Source: an uncultured Arenicella sp. (lineage in GTDB: Bacteria; Pseudomonadota; Gammaproteobacteria; Arenicellales; Arenicellaceae). Taken from it: a stretch of DNA of 64,000 nt. Each line of letters opens with the position of its first letter. Position 1 is the stretch's first letter. The notes beneath the pieces were generated by a model. The model did no database searches. It was not told the origin of the DNA and saw only the letters and a list, made by a program, of their open reading frames with translations. The position numbers were made by a program, and so were the translations under genes. The stretch is from the NCBI GenBank assembly GCA_938045295.1, contig CALINO010000035.1, positions 1-64,000 of the forward strand. The letters run 5' to 3'. Below, piece after piece: positions 6,927-17,687 of this stretch.

Positions 6927-9074
6927 ATGTTGAATTTTTTGGGTAGGTATACAGCCATCATTACTACAACCATTGTGTTTGTGGTGTTGGTTGTTGGTGT
7001 TTTGGGTGTGAATTTTAATTTGTCGTTTCAGACTGAAGCTAACGCTGAAGTGGTGAATATCGCTGGTCGTCAGCGTATGTTGTCGCAACGGGTGGCTAAG
7101 TCGCTTGCCAATGTTAAAGCAAAAGCACTGAGTGATGAGCCTTACAGTAAGCCGCTGGATGAGTTACAAACCGCGGCTCAGCTTTTTAATCGTACATTGC
7201 TTGCCTTTAAACAAGGCGGGCCAACGCTTAGCACTAAGTCTGGGCAGACGTATCTAGAGCCTGTCTCCGGGTCGCAAGGCGAGAAGGCGGTTTATACCGC
7301 ATTGCAAATTTGGCAGCCCATGAATGGGCTGATTGAGCAGGTTATTAACCAGCTGGGTGAGAGTAATGAACAAGCCAGCCTAGAAAGCGCGATTGGCAGC
7401 CTCACTCAGGCGCAAGAGTATGCGGATAGCAACATTAATCGGCTGCTCAAAGTGATGAACGATTTAACCAATCACACCGAGAGCTTGGCTAATGATGCGG
7501 CGGATAAATCTCGCCTTATTCAGTCGGCGGGTATTCTTGCCAGCTTGCTTTGCTTTGCAATCATTATGTATCTGATCTTGGGCCAGTTGCGGGCCTCGGA
7601 TATGCGTGCGTCGATGGCGCGAAGGGAAACCAAGCAAATCTTTGAGACGGTTGACCAAGGCTTGTTTCTTGTTGATAAAGATCTGCGCATGGGCAGTGAG
7701 CATTCAAAGGCCCTTGAATCCATATTCTTCACAGATAAATTTGAGAATAAGAGTTTTACTCAGTTTATTGGTGGGCTGGTCAGTGCCAGTGATCTCGATA
7801 AAGTAAAACGATATCTCGATTTGTTGTTTGACCCGCATAAAAAACAACGTTTGTTGACCGATTTGAACCCGCTTAAAAAGCTGGCAATTCAGGTGGAAGA
7901 GTTTGGTCAGCCGCGAACCAAGTTCTTAAATTTCTCATTTTCGCGAGTGTTTAAAGACAATCAAATCGTCAGTGTTTTGTCATCGGTGTCTGATATTACT
8001 AAGGAAGTCACTCTTGCCAATGAGTTGGAGCTGGAAACGCGACGCAATCAACAGCAGTTAGAGATGATGTTGGCTTTGATGGGAGCTGATTCCGATATGT
8101 TGCCTGAATTTTTAGCCAGCAGTCATGGTGCGTATGCAAACGTAAACGAGTTATTAAAAGGCCGCGCAAATAGCGCGCTGGAATTCAGAGAAAAAGCGGA
8201 TGCGATGATGCCCTTGATTCATAAAGTTAAAGGAGACAGCGCGGCTTTAGGTTTGGAGTTTATTAGCCAGCTTTGTCATCAGTTTGAAGACAAGGTGCAA
8301 ATTGTAATGAATAAGCGCGACCCGTCAGGCGATGACTTTTTATCGTTAACGGTAACGTTAGAGCAGCTTATATCCACCAATCAGCAAATTTCATCAATCT
8401 TCGACGCGATTGCCGGCTCTGGCATAAGTGGTGGCAGTGCTGGCGCTAGTGAAGCCGAGACCGGTGACAGCCGTATGAAGTTGATGCAGCTTGCTGAAAC
8501 GGTTTCTCAGCGCCAGGGCAAAAAAGTTAATTTGAGCATAGCTGGGTTTGATGAAGCTTGGGTGCCGGCAAAGGTGAAGTTAGATGTTGTGTCGCTGGCA
8601 AGTCAGTTGCTACGTAATGCAATCAGTCACGGCATTGAAACGCCAGCGGAACGAGTGGGCGCCGGAAAATCAGAGTTGGGCCAAGTTACTTTGGCCTTGT
8701 ACAGCCAGGGTGCTCAAGGCTTTCGTTTGGTGTGTGAAGATGATGGCGGCGGGGTTGATTTTGATCTGCTCGAAGAAAAAGCCATTGCTCAAGGTTTACT
8801 CAACCCTGAGGCCGGTGGAAAAATCACACCGAACCGATTGGTTAATTTAATGCTCACGAATGCGCTTTCCAGTAAAAGTGAGGCCGATGAAGATGCCGGC
8901 AGAGGTGTTGGTTTAAGTGTGGCTGGCGAATTGGTGTCTAAGCTCAATGGCAAATTAGCCTTAAGTACTAAGCCGTCGATCGGCACACGTTTTAGTGTCA
9001 GGTTTACCAATTTTGATAAAGGCAGTAATGCACAAGAGCCAATGATAGAACAAAAAATGAAGGGGGTTGCTTAA
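6927..9074 (+). CDS. Membrane-bound CheA-like histidine kinase with PilJ-type sensor, PAS-like and HPt domains
   Basis: The 715-residue protein has a first membrane segment (about 7-30) and a periplasmic region starting with VVNIAGRQRMLSQRVAKS, the signature of PilJ-N/NarX-like sensor domains. A second membrane segment lies at about 198-217. A cytoplasmic PAS-like region spans about 236-355 and a short coiled coil about 360-380. An HPt module carries His432 in HKVKGDSAALGL. A CheA-type ATPase follows: N box RNAISHGIE (Asn564, His568), G1 DDGGGVD and G2 GRGVGLS. Unlike CheA there is no C-terminal CheW-like domain, so it should not dock on chemoreceptor arrays; it senses and phosphorylates by itself. 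The receiver starts 1 base after its stop, and that gene overlaps a CheX gene. The partners are inferred from this layout. Confidence 0.85.
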   Translation: MLNFLGRYTAIITTTIVFVVLVVGVLGVNFNLSFQTEANAEVVNIAGRQRMLSQRVAKSLANVKAKALSDEPYSKPLDELQTAAQLFNRTLLAFKQGGPTLSTKSGQTYLEPVSGSQGEKAVYTALQIWQPMNGLIEQVINQLGESNEQASLESAIGSLTQAQEYADSNINRLLKVMNDLTNHTESLANDAADKSRLIQSAGILASLLCFAIIMYLILGQLRASDMRASMARRETKQIFETVDQGLFLVDKDLRMGSEHSKALESIFFTDKFENKSFTQFIGGLVSASDLDKVKRYLDLLFDPHKKQRLLTDLNPLKKLAIQVEEFGQPRTKFLNFSFSRVFKDNQIVSVLSSVSDITKEVTLANELELETRRNQQQLEMMLALMGADSDMLPEFLASSHGAYANVNELLKGRANSALEFREKADAMMPLIHKVKGDSAALGLEFISQLCHQFEDKVQIVMNKRDPSGDDFLSLTVTLEQLISTNQQISSIFDAIAGSGISGGSAGASEAETGDSRMKLMQLAETVSQRQGKKVNLSIAGFDEAWVPAKVKLDVVSLASQLLRNAISHGIETPAERVGAGKSELGQVTLALYSQGAQGFRLVCEDDGGGVDFDLLEEKAIAQGLLNPEAGGKITPNRLVNLMLTNALSSKSEADEDAGRGVGLSVAGELVSKLNGKLALSTKPSIGTRFSVRFTNFDKGSNAQEPMIEQKMKGVA

Positions 9075-9075
9075 A

Positions 9076-9456
9076 ATGTATAGATTATTAATTGTGGATG
9101 ACTCAAAGCTGATTCGACAAAAAATTGAGCGTGAGTGCGATCAAAATTTATTTCATATAGTGGGCAGCGCTATCGACGGTTCTCAAGCGCTATCTCTATT
9201 TTTTCAGCAGGCCATTGATGTGGTCACCATGGACTTGACCATGCCAGAGCTGGACGGAATTGAATGCATTGAATCGTTGGTACGCTTGGATCCAGATGTC
9301 AAAATTTTAGTCATATCGGCACTCAATGATGTGGCTACTGGCATGGAAGCACTTGAGAAAGGGGCAATGGGGTTTGTAACCAAACCGTTTTCTGGAAGTG
9401 AGTTACAGTCAGCGCTTTGTGAGTTAGTTGAAGATGAATTGCAGGTAAGGTTATGA
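9076..9456 (+). CDS. Single-domain CheY-like response regulator
   Basis: This 126-residue protein is a receiver domain with no output domain. It has the acidic pair Asp8-Asp9 (VDDSK), phosphoacceptor Asp53 in TMDLTMPELDG, a Ser in VISALN and Lys103 in VTKPFSG. I use the ATG at 9076, one base after the kinase stop. The frame is open back to a TTG at 9067, but that start would add only three residues inside the kinase end. By its position it is the likely target of the CheA-like kinase upstream, and its downstream partner CheX would dephosphorylate it. Lacking a DNA-binding or enzymatic domain, it must act by protein-protein contact. Confidence 0.92.
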   Translation: MYRLLIVDDSKLIRQKIERECDQNLFHIVGSAIDGSQALSLFFQQAIDVVTMDLTMPELDGIECIESLVRLDPDVKILVISALNDVATGMEALEKGAMGFVTKPFSGSELQSALCELVEDELQVRL

Positions 9457-9899
9457 AGGAAGAAAAGTTAAAAATATTTATCGACAGTATCGTCAAGTAC
9501 TTTCATTATGCCGGTCAGACTTCAGTGAAAATAGGCAGCCCATTTTTAATTAAAGATATTAAAGAGGTAACGGCTGACTACACGGGGACTATTTCTATTT
9601 CAGGCGATTATCAAGGGGCGTGTTACTTTACCGCACCTTCGGCGCTATTAAAGCATTTGATTTTGTCGATAGGCGAAGTGGATACATCGGACTCAATGAT
9701 GCAGGATGCGGTGGGTGAAGTGGCCAATACCATGTCGGGTAATGCAAGGCGGCGGCTTGGGAAGAAATTCATTATCTCAACGCCCAAAGTCTCTAAAGGG
9801 GCTCCTTTTGTTGTTGATAAAAAGAGTGATGCACACATTTATGCCATTCCTATTAATTGGAAATCGTATAAAGCAACCTTAGGTATTCATTTAAATTAG
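9453..9899 (+). CDS. CheX-type phosphatase of a CheY-like regulator
   Basis: The 148-residue protein fits the CheC/CheX/FliY phosphatase fold. The key signature is DAVGEVANTMSGNARR, in which Glu89 and Asn92 are the catalytic pair that positions water to hydrolyse aspartyl phosphate. One such E-x2-N motif is visible, as in CheX (CheC carries two). The start ATG overlaps the stop of the receiver gene (ATGA), implying translational coupling. Together with the kinase and receiver it forms a complete on/off phosphorylation circuit. The physiological output is unknown. Confidence 0.87.
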   Translation: MKEEKLKIFIDSIVKYFHYAGQTSVKIGSPFLIKDIKEVTADYTGTISISGDYQGACYFTAPSALLKHLILSIGEVDTSDSMMQDAVGEVANTMSGNARRRLGKKFIISTPKVSKGAPFVVDKKSDAHIYAIPINWKSYKATLGIHLN

Positions 9900-13886: not shown

Positions 13887-14285
13887 ATGTCAGATAATAC
13901 TCAAACCGCGCAGGCGGCTAAATCGAGTGCGAAAGTGATGGTGATTGATGACAGCAACACCATACGCATGACAGCCGAAACCATTCTAAAAAAGGAAGGA
14001 TACGAGGTGTTTACCGCCACCAATGGTTTTGAAGCAATGTCTGTGATCACCGATACTCGGCCTGATATTATCTTTGTTGATATTATGATGCCTCGTCTAG
14101 ACGGTTATCAAACTTGTAAGTTGATTAAAAATAACAGCTACTTTAGAAACACTCCGGTCATTATGTTGTCGAGCAAAGACAGCCTGTTTGATCGCGCTCG
14201 CGGGCGGGTTGCGGGTTCAGAGCAGCACATTAATAAGCCGTTTACCAAAAGCGAGTTATTGGAGGCGATTCATCGCTATGTCTAA
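13887..14285 (+). CDS. pilG: Type IV pilus response regulator PilG
   Basis: PilG is the CheY-like regulator of the Chp system that promotes pilus extension; in Pseudomonas it also acts with FimV and adenylate cyclase. The 132-residue single receiver domain has Asp21-Asp22 (VIDDSNTIR), phosphoacceptor Asp65 in FVDIMMPRLDGYQTC and Lys117 in INKPFTKSELL. The stretch DIMMPRLDGYQTCKLIKNNS is characteristic of PilG rather than generic CheY. It is the first gene of the cluster, 90 bases before pilH. Confidence 0.95.
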   Translation: MSDNTQTAQAAKSSAKVMVIDDSNTIRMTAETILKKEGYEVFTATNGFEAMSVITDTRPDIIFVDIMMPRLDGYQTCKLIKNNSYFRNTPVIMLSSKDSLFDRARGRVAGSEQHINKPFTKSELLEAIHRYV

Positions 14286-15494: not shown

Positions 15495-17687
15495 ATGAGT
15501 GATCCTAAACAGCAAGCAGAAAACGAATTGCTTGACTTAGACAGTGTTTCCGATGAGTCGTTAGAAGAGCTTGAGGCTCTGTACGAAGCGGCCGAAAAAG
15601 AAGCGCAAGAAGCCGCTCAAGAAGCTGAAGAACTAGAGCAACTAGAAGAGGCTGGCTTTGCAGAAGAGGCCGCAGTAGCCTCGGTAGCCGGTTCTGGCTC
15701 TGGTCGAGTTTGGTTGATTCTTAGCGTGCTTGCCTTTTTATTGGCGTTAGCGGCTGCCTTGTTGATTACGCCTGCAGTTACGGCACAAAAAGACAGAACA
15801 GCTAAGGCGATTGACGTTATTAATAAGGCTAATTTGGCCACGGCGGTAACCTCTAGGGCACTAACACAAAACGGTTCGTATGCTCCTATTGAGGGCAGCA
15901 TGCAAGAGGTTGAGGCGGCGGTGAATCAGTTTGTTGCCGCCGATGGGTTTACTGGCAAAGTAGCCACGGCTGTGTTTGGTAATGGCTCTTACAATGCTGA
16001 TGTGTTGGAAAAATTCGCCGCCTACAAAGCCGACAAAGAACAATTTATGTTGACCCAAGAAGAGGTCAGTGCAGCTAAGTCTGAAATCAACGGCACCTCA
16101 GAGCAATTGGCTCAAACCTTGGGCGATTCCATCAACTTTGTGAACGCGGTGGCCATTGAAGGCCGAAAGAAAGTATCGGGCGAAGCGAAGAACCGTTATT
16201 TGTACTTAACGTCTGAAGCGTCAAACCTAAACGGCGTACTTGGCACCATGATTGGCGACATGCCAAAATTTTACCGCACCAGTGAAACCCCACAAAGAAA
16301 CCTTGATCGTATCAATGGATTTATGGGGCGTTTGCAAGAATCATTGGGCCGTATTGTCAGCAACTCGGCTGATGTTGTTGGTACGGCGGCTGAGCCTTTG
16401 CGAGAGCAATACTCTGACATCGAATCGCGGCTGGCTAATTTGGGTGACCGCATTGGGGCTATTAGTGAAGCACGTTCAAGTCTAAGCAAGCTCGCCGAAA
16501 GCAATATTAACTTGGCGACGTCGGTGGATGCCGCGCGTAACCAAGGCGGCAGTTATGGCTTGCTGAGTAAGCTATCAAAAGCATTGCCAATTATCTTGTC
16601 ATTGTTGGGTATTTTCTTTTTGTGGCGTTACGCACAGACGCGCGCCAGTAATACAACGGTTCGCGACGCAGGCTTAGAAGAAACGCTGGCTGACCAACAA
16701 GAATCGATTCTAAAACTGCTGGACGAAATGAGCGCGCTGGCGGATGGAGACCTTACCGTTGAGGCTGAGGTAACCGACCAAATTACAGGCGCGATTGCTG
16801 ACTCGGTCAACTTTGCGGTAATCGAAATGCGTGAACTGGTGTCGCAAATTAACCGAGCGTCGTTGCAAGTGGCGAAAGAATCGGAACAGGCGGTGTCCAG
16901 TGCGCAACAAGTATCGCAGTCTAACGCCAGTCAGGCGACCGAAATATCCAGCGCGGCAGAATTAATGCAGCAAGTTTCTGCCAACATGCGAGAAATGTCG
17001 GAACAAGCGAACTCGTCGTCGTCAATGGCGAATGAGTCAATGCAAGTGGCTGAGCGTGGTGCGCAAGCGGTACGTGACACTATTTCAGGCATGGAAGACA
17101 TGCGTGAACAAATTCAAGAAACATCAAAACGAATTAAGCGTCTAGGTGAATCATCCCAGCGCATTGGTGACATTGTGGCCTTGATTGATGACATTGCTGA
17201 ACAAACGAATATCTTGTCGTTAAACGCGGCGATTCAAGCGTCTATGGCCGGGGAAGCCGGTCGCGGTTTTGCGGTGGTATCGGATGAGGTGCAAAGCTTG
17301 GCCGAACGTTCAACCGAAGCGACCAAGAAAATTGCCGAACTGGTATCGACTATTCAAAACGACACCAATGACGCGGTATTGTCGATGGAAAAAGCAACGC
17401 AGCAGGTGGTCAGTGGTACTCGAGTTGCGGATACCGCCGGTAACGCACTGGCTGAAATTGAAACCGCGTCGAGACAGTTGTCAACGTTGGTAGAAGGTAT
17501 TTCAAAAGGTTCTAATGAGCACGCTGAAACAGTGACCAAGGTATCAGAGCAAGTAACCCAGGTGAGTGACTCATCGACCGAAACATCGCAAAAAGCGCAA
17601 GACTCAGCGAACTCGATCGCGAAGTTATTAGAACTTGCGAAAGACTTAGAAACCTCGGTTTCTCGGTTCAAGCTACCAACGAATTAA
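15495..17687 (+). CDS. pilJ: Type IV pilus methyl-accepting chemoreceptor PilJ
   Basis: PilJ is the receptor of the Chp system. The 730-residue protein has membrane segments at about 70-92 and 364-382, a periplasmic helical region between them, a HAMP-like region, and a long coiled-coil signalling domain. The conserved hairpin tip [22 protein letters not shown] starts near residue 570. Oddities: a roughly 70-residue Glu/Ala-rich cytoplasmic N-terminus precedes the first membrane segment (Pseudomonas PilJ begins almost directly with it), and the periplasmic part lacks the LSQR motif typical of PilJ-N. Identity rests on the tip and on position between pilI and chpA. No methyltransferase gene follows, unlike pilK in Pseudomonas. 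Confidence 0.9.

Follow-up and report, generated by a model that had tools for sequence, protein, structure and literature searches.

Predicted nitrate-sensing receptor-kinase encoded with a lone CheY and a CheX-type protein in an uncultured Arenicella

CheA and CheX are usually regarded as parts of chemosensory arrays, and CheW and the P3 domain as core to CheA. In Thermotoga and Borrelia, CheX and its dedicated CheY serve flagellar chemotaxis arrays. The Pil-Chp system employs PilJ, the CheW-like PilI and the multi-HPt ChpA, its receptor and kinase being separate and coupled through CheW. McpN, a nitrate chemoreceptor of P. aeruginosa, is a receptor that acts through CheA and CheW; NarX and NarQ, sensor kinases for nitrate and nitrite, are single membrane proteins that join a periplasmic four-helix sensor to a kinase and signal to a DNA-binding regulator. 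We analyzed a three-gene locus of an uncultured Arenicella sp., within a stretch of 64,000 nucleotides (the window; contig CALINO010000035.1), that resembles each of these systems in part. Its kinase shares with CheA an HPt domain with a phospho-accepting histidine and a CheA-type ATPase, and the lone CheY target and CheX-type dephosphorylation predicted here are also alike, but it has neither P3 nor a C-terminal CheW domain and carries its own transmembrane sensor. The PilJ-family four-helix sensor and the exact N-box are common to McpN and to this protein, in which, however, the sensor sits on the kinase. With NarX and NarQ it has in common the periplasmic four-helix sensor, a G47-x-x-R50 pair and the fusion to a kinase, which is here of the HPt and CheA type and is followed by a lone receiver and a separate phosphatase in place of a DNA-binding regulator. 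The CheX has the E-x-x-N fold of the Thermotoga and Borrelia proteins and a dedicated CheY, as they do, yet belongs to a distinct subfamily tied to a membrane kinase. The Chp system, a near neighbor, is CheA-type too, but it has no CheX and no N-box sensor; the triple has both, and its receptor and kinase are fused in one protein without CheW. The kinase would work like a CheA catalytic unit set in the frame of a NarX-like sensor kinase.

The kinase gene (6927–9074, plus strand, as for all features of the triple given below) encodes 715 residues, arranged as a first transmembrane segment (TM1), a periplasmic PilJ-family four-helix sensor, a second transmembrane segment (TM2), a PAS-like domain, an HPt domain and a CheA-type ATPase. 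Pfam recognized PilJ (PF13675) at residues 33–152 (E = 2.5e-12), Hpt at residues 391–480 (E = 8.1e-8) and HATPase_c at residues 556–693 (E = 7.7e-11). The top NCBIfam model for the protein was a CheA (6.9e-28), and the PDB matches to the ATPase were to CheAs only (1.5e-21). In the HPt domain (8097–8417) the motif LIHKVKG, starting at residue 430, places the phospho-accepting histidine at His432 (codon 8220–8222); H432, K435 and G436 were invariant among 23 kinases. N564, H568, G569, D605–G607 and G658/G660/G662 of the ATPase (P4; 8463–9005) were likewise invariant in the alignment. No match to CheW or to H-kinase_dim, the P3 dimerization domain of CheA, was obtained in the kinase with Pfam, even at E = 10, and because the protein ends 22 residues beyond the ATPase there is no space for a CheW domain. 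These searches, including the one with CheW models that the original prediction had proposed, confirmed its description of a membrane kinase with a PilJ-family sensor, an HPt domain and a CheA-type ATPase but no CheW. Since the sensor and the transmembrane segments are on the kinase itself, its idea that receptor and kinase functions are fused in one protein was also supported.

An AlphaFold model of the kinase, computed with 23 family sequences as input (mean pLDDT 81.8, pTM 0.50), had a long TM1 helix, a four-helix sensor, a continuous helix from TM2 to the PAS-like domain with no HAMP domain, and a helical linker before a four-helix HPt. Between the HPt domain and the ATPase, it had a disordered linker (residues 501–512) and no helical hairpin at the position of CheA P3. 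The region between TM2 and HPt (residues about 230–356; 7614–7995) had no Pfam match and was kept in the alignment of the kinase family; its predicted secondary structure (residues 245–356) follows the strand and helix order of a PAS fold, and it may be called PAS-like.

P3 and CheW have been found in all CheAs surveyed (PMC10542144). By the criteria of that survey the kinase is, as judged from its sequence, not a CheA, because two of the four core domains are missing. That it is nonetheless a degenerate CheA, a chemotaxis remnant that lost CheW and uses the CheW and MCP proteins of the genome, appears highly improbable. Its P4 is indeed of the CheA type, but P3 and P5 are absent, the catalytic and phospho-acceptor residues are invariant and the kinase has a sensor and transmembrane segments of its own, which already contradicts such an origin. 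Furthermore, no member of the family reaches far beyond the ATPase, the CheW domains of the host genome are all within the Chp cluster, and three paralogous triples have been retained in this one genome.

The N-box, [IVL]-[ND]-x-A-G-x-Q-R-M-L-[ST]-Q, is the pattern of McpN-type nitrate-binding domains and was built around the nitrate site (PMC6381276). The sensor matched it exactly, at all 12 positions (VNIAGRQRMLSQ, residues 43–54; 7053–7088), and this was the single occurrence across the six frames of the window. Gly47 and Arg50 are numbered as in NarQ, where G47 and R50 contact nitrate (PMC8199190), and the arginine corresponds to R61 of McpN. Residues 46–55 were invariant in eight N-box kinases, the remaining sensor being 35–62% identical, and the top PDB match of the sensor profile was McpN (6gcv; 3.5e-5). 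PilJ of P. aeruginosa has no N-box and does not bind nitrate (PMC6381276). Because the sequence of its domain 1 nevertheless retains G-x-x-R, the ligand assignment must rest on the full N-box. On these grounds, the kinase sensor is predicted most likely to bind nitrate (or nitrite) via Arg50 and Gly47.

We think it possible but unlikely that the ligand is another small anion or a membrane or redox signal and that the N-box is kept for dimer packing. The PilJ result would fit this, as would the sensor of the paralogue on contig C36, which has lost G47 and R50 (A/S) and retained the architecture of the family. Moreover, narG was found in none of the 18 genomes of the genus and napA in just one, and dissimilatory nitrate respiration was therefore rejected as the reason for the sensor. 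The match at every N-box position, the invariance of Arg50 and Gly47 among N-box kinases and the derivation of the pattern around a nitrate site all argue, however, for nitrate.

The second gene (9076–9456) encodes a lone receiver, CheY, of 126 residues with D8, D9, D53, S81 and K103 (Response_reg, E = 5.1e-27). The third (9453–9899) encodes a CheX-type phosphatase of 148 residues, as classified by Pfam (PF13690, E = 2.8e-19), PDB and alignment; its catalytic-type Glu89 and Asn92 (E-x-x-N) were invariant in 14 members, and it would act as a phosphatase of phosphorylated CheY (CheY-P). The Pfam matches agree with the original prediction that a lone receiver (Asp53) and a CheX-type protein (Glu89/Asn92) come after the kinase, and the residue numbers that it gave, including His432, were all right. 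The three genes are tightly coupled. The kinase stop (9074) and the CheY ATG (9076) are separated by a 1-bp gap, and the CheX ATG overlaps the CheY stop by 4 bp. The ATG at 9076 is a likelier CheY start than the TTG at 9067 that had been listed. A scan for promoters gave results at chance level, and terminator-like sites were somewhat above chance.

The survey of gene neighborhoods that had been proposed along with the prediction yielded 26 kinase-CheY-CheX triples. Their gene order was fixed and was repeated in relatives of the genus and of the family. Three of them are in the host genome (in the window and on contigs C13 and C36), the one on C13 representing a branch with a different, non-N-box sensor. 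In a draw of 369 genomes from the class, the kinase was matched over its full length nine times beyond the genus (G381, G317, G367, G409, G346, G194 twice, G369 and G264, the last with a split kinase frame). In all nine, a CheX gene was present about 0.5–0.6 kb downstream on the same strand; CheX occurred in just 46 of the 369 genomes. With a profile made from genus and family members only, triple CheXs from outside the genus scored 173–213 bits versus 34–61 bits for other gammaproteobacterial CheXs, which had no such kinase adjoining. Across the 26 triples, the distance correlations amounted to 0.85 for kinase-CheY, 0.84 for kinase-CheX and 0.73 for CheY-CheX (maximum of 0.30 in 2000 label shuffles), a tree congruence that can be caused by joint inheritance instead of physical coupling. 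Paralogous triples clustered by subfamily, not by genome, and from this grouping and the distance correlations it follows that the triples move and diverge as units. Conserved synteny and tree congruence thus provide strong indirect support for a putative closed kinase-CheY-CheX circuit.

There were exceptions. Three kinases (L018, L019 and L021) had no CheY or CheX in the adjoining sequence, which for L021 ends at the contig end. Those of L019 and L021 were also devoid of the HPt histidine; these orphan family kinases are possibly pseudo-kinases or regulators. An orphan CheX of the triple subfamily was found on contig C18 of the host genome (L042, 6222–6674), with no kinase or CheY within the surrounding 12.5 kb. 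Contig C10 (L043, 4409–5515) encodes a 368-residue protein with a hydrophobic N-terminus, a CheA-like ATPase and no HPt match, and short ATPase matches resembling it were seen in other members of the genus. Outside the genus, one locus (L109, G194:C4, 4846–13431) contains two tandem triples, one of them with an additional CheX, and also proteins of 291 and 312 residues without Pfam matches. At another (L105, G317:C26, 9113–10357), a receiver-Ser/Thr protein kinase fusion comes directly after the triple and is a possible downstream partner.

In a draw of 398 genomes from the phylum, for which the share outside the class is not given, matches were found in the host genome (G000) and G194 only. 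A single-protein search of genome contigs gave one named relative, an Arenicella MAG, and no named relatives were found on plasmids. Our literature search, limited to open-access papers, returned none describing the kinase-CheY-CheX family. Several bacterial families contain the three-gene unit with other sensors, and it therefore looks like a signaling module not yet described and not like part of the adjacent pilus system. The best reading is that the triple belongs, as one branch, to a family in which sensors are swapped and the kinase core, CheY and CheX are retained.

The Chp genes do begin only 4 kb downstream (at 13887), as the original prediction had noted. It had also taken AGRQRMLSQR for the signature of PilJ receptors and had considered cross-talk with Chp possible, which we could not support. 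This motif belongs to the N-box of McpN-type domains, and the Chp receptor of the window (15495–17687) has an MCP signaling domain but, according to Pfam, no PF13675 match and no recognizable PilJ domain; the kinase is the sole PF13675 protein of the host genome. Cross-talk via a shared signature was therefore rejected. The adjacency was rejected as a functional link as well, since it is not conserved: no Chp genes were found around the orthologous loci L113 and L116, and chpA is on other contigs in these genomes. PilG and PilH scored 62 and 51 bits against a profile of triple CheYs built from the triples of the host genome, the members of which reached at least 145 bits. Nothing that we found points to cross-talk between the kinase and Chp.

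FliM was detected in none of the 18 genomes of the genus, 11 of which are at least 90% complete. It is therefore very unlikely, as far as gene content tells, that CheY-P acts on a flagellar switch. The same closed circuit might instead have type IV pilus behavior as its output, CheY-P or the kinase feeding the Chp/Pil machinery; we regard this as doubtful. The lack of FliM is compatible with it, as are the proximity of a Chp cluster with CheW, MCP and ChpA and the presence of ChpA-like ATPase matches in almost all genomes of the genus. In addition, a motility suppressor of V. cholerae carried a secondary mutation in VC0377, a CheX-family protein, the motility concerned being flagellar (PMC8789113). 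Yet the N-box triple is present in 6 of 18 genomes of the genus while ChpA is nearly universal, and neither the proximity nor the signature argument survived the comparisons described above.

Genes for nitrogen metabolism were found in the host genome and, in some cases, beside triples. In the host genome, a cluster (L130) contains nirB (1060 bits, cut-off 578), a small protein at the NirD position, a molybdopterin reductase gene placed after nirBD, NarK (above the model cut-off) and a PP2C/Ser-Thr kinase. Against the NasC model the reductase scored 434.7 bits (cut-off 1100), less than against the Fdh-alpha model; because it is below the NasC and NasA cut-offs, we infer nitrate assimilation in the host from context. 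In G346, a distant relative, an N-box triple and the same pair, NarK and a PP2C/Ser-Thr kinase fusion, are arranged tail-to-tail (L108, G346:C9, 2947–9145). This was the only one of six N-box loci with readable flanks to adjoin a nitrate gene, none being found beside the triple in the window, L107, L110, L113 or L116. Among 27 genomes, NarK was only weakly associated with the N-box (4/9 with, 2/18 without) and did not set N-box genomes apart from the others, and nirB was present in all six N-box genomes of the genus versus 6 of its 12 other genomes (p about 0.05). A narK-like gene split into two frames lies beside nirB in G013 (L131, G013:C55, 5785–6869), near ABC-transporter genes that by eye resemble a nitrate uptake system and an ANTAR regulator-like gene. 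In three genomes, a sister triple is followed after 1–9 bp by an ammonium transporter (Amt) gene (L040, G000:C13, 4291–9051; L112, G013:C13, 4207–8981; L115, G016:C21, 3725–8584), after which comes a protein of about 222 residues with no Pfam match, as tested in L040.

Together, the Amt-linked and NarK-linked triples suggest a nitrogen theme, at few loci. The triple could thus directly control the uptake or assimilation of inorganic nitrogen, with transporters or the PP2C/Ser-Thr kinase pair, and not motility, as the target of CheY-P, although we hold this to be improbable. The NarK/PP2C-kinase pair shared by G346 and the host and the close spacing of the Amt genes speak for such a role, but the majority of triples have no transporter neighbor and the Amt-linked kinases have another sensor. 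To our knowledge, no contact between a CheY and a transporter has been described. Quite speculative is the wider proposal that a general, modular non-motility family of gammaproteobacteria, including this FliM-less genus, senses inorganic nitrogen (the N-box branch responding to nitrate and the Amt-linked one to ammonium) and adjusts uptake or assimilation fast, by protein-protein contact rather than by transcription.

The explanation that we favor, and consider probable, is that of a predicted nitrate-sensing receptor-kinase that phosphorylates a dedicated CheY, which is reset by a dedicated CheX. The periplasmic domain would bind its ligand, nitrate (or nitrite), on the axis of the dimer, and the signal would travel through TM2, the long helix and the PAS-like domain to the CheA-type ATPase. 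This would phosphorylate His432 within the same dimer, from which the phosphoryl group would be passed to Asp53 of CheY and finally be stripped off by CheX. Such a circuit would run without CheW, a chemoreceptor array or methylation. Because P3 is missing, the kinase would dimerize through its sensor, transmembrane and PAS-like part. Pilus motors, nitrate uptake or assimilation, or another protein are candidate targets of CheY-P.

The occurrence of a lone CheY in a genus without a flagellar switch raises the question of its role. By all genomic signs, a CheA-type core together with CheY and CheX can act as a sensor kinase system complete in itself, with no recourse to arrays or coupling proteins. 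It would be a compact one, in which ligand recognition, kinase, messenger and reset are accommodated in three proteins, and for which nitrate is the predicted ligand.
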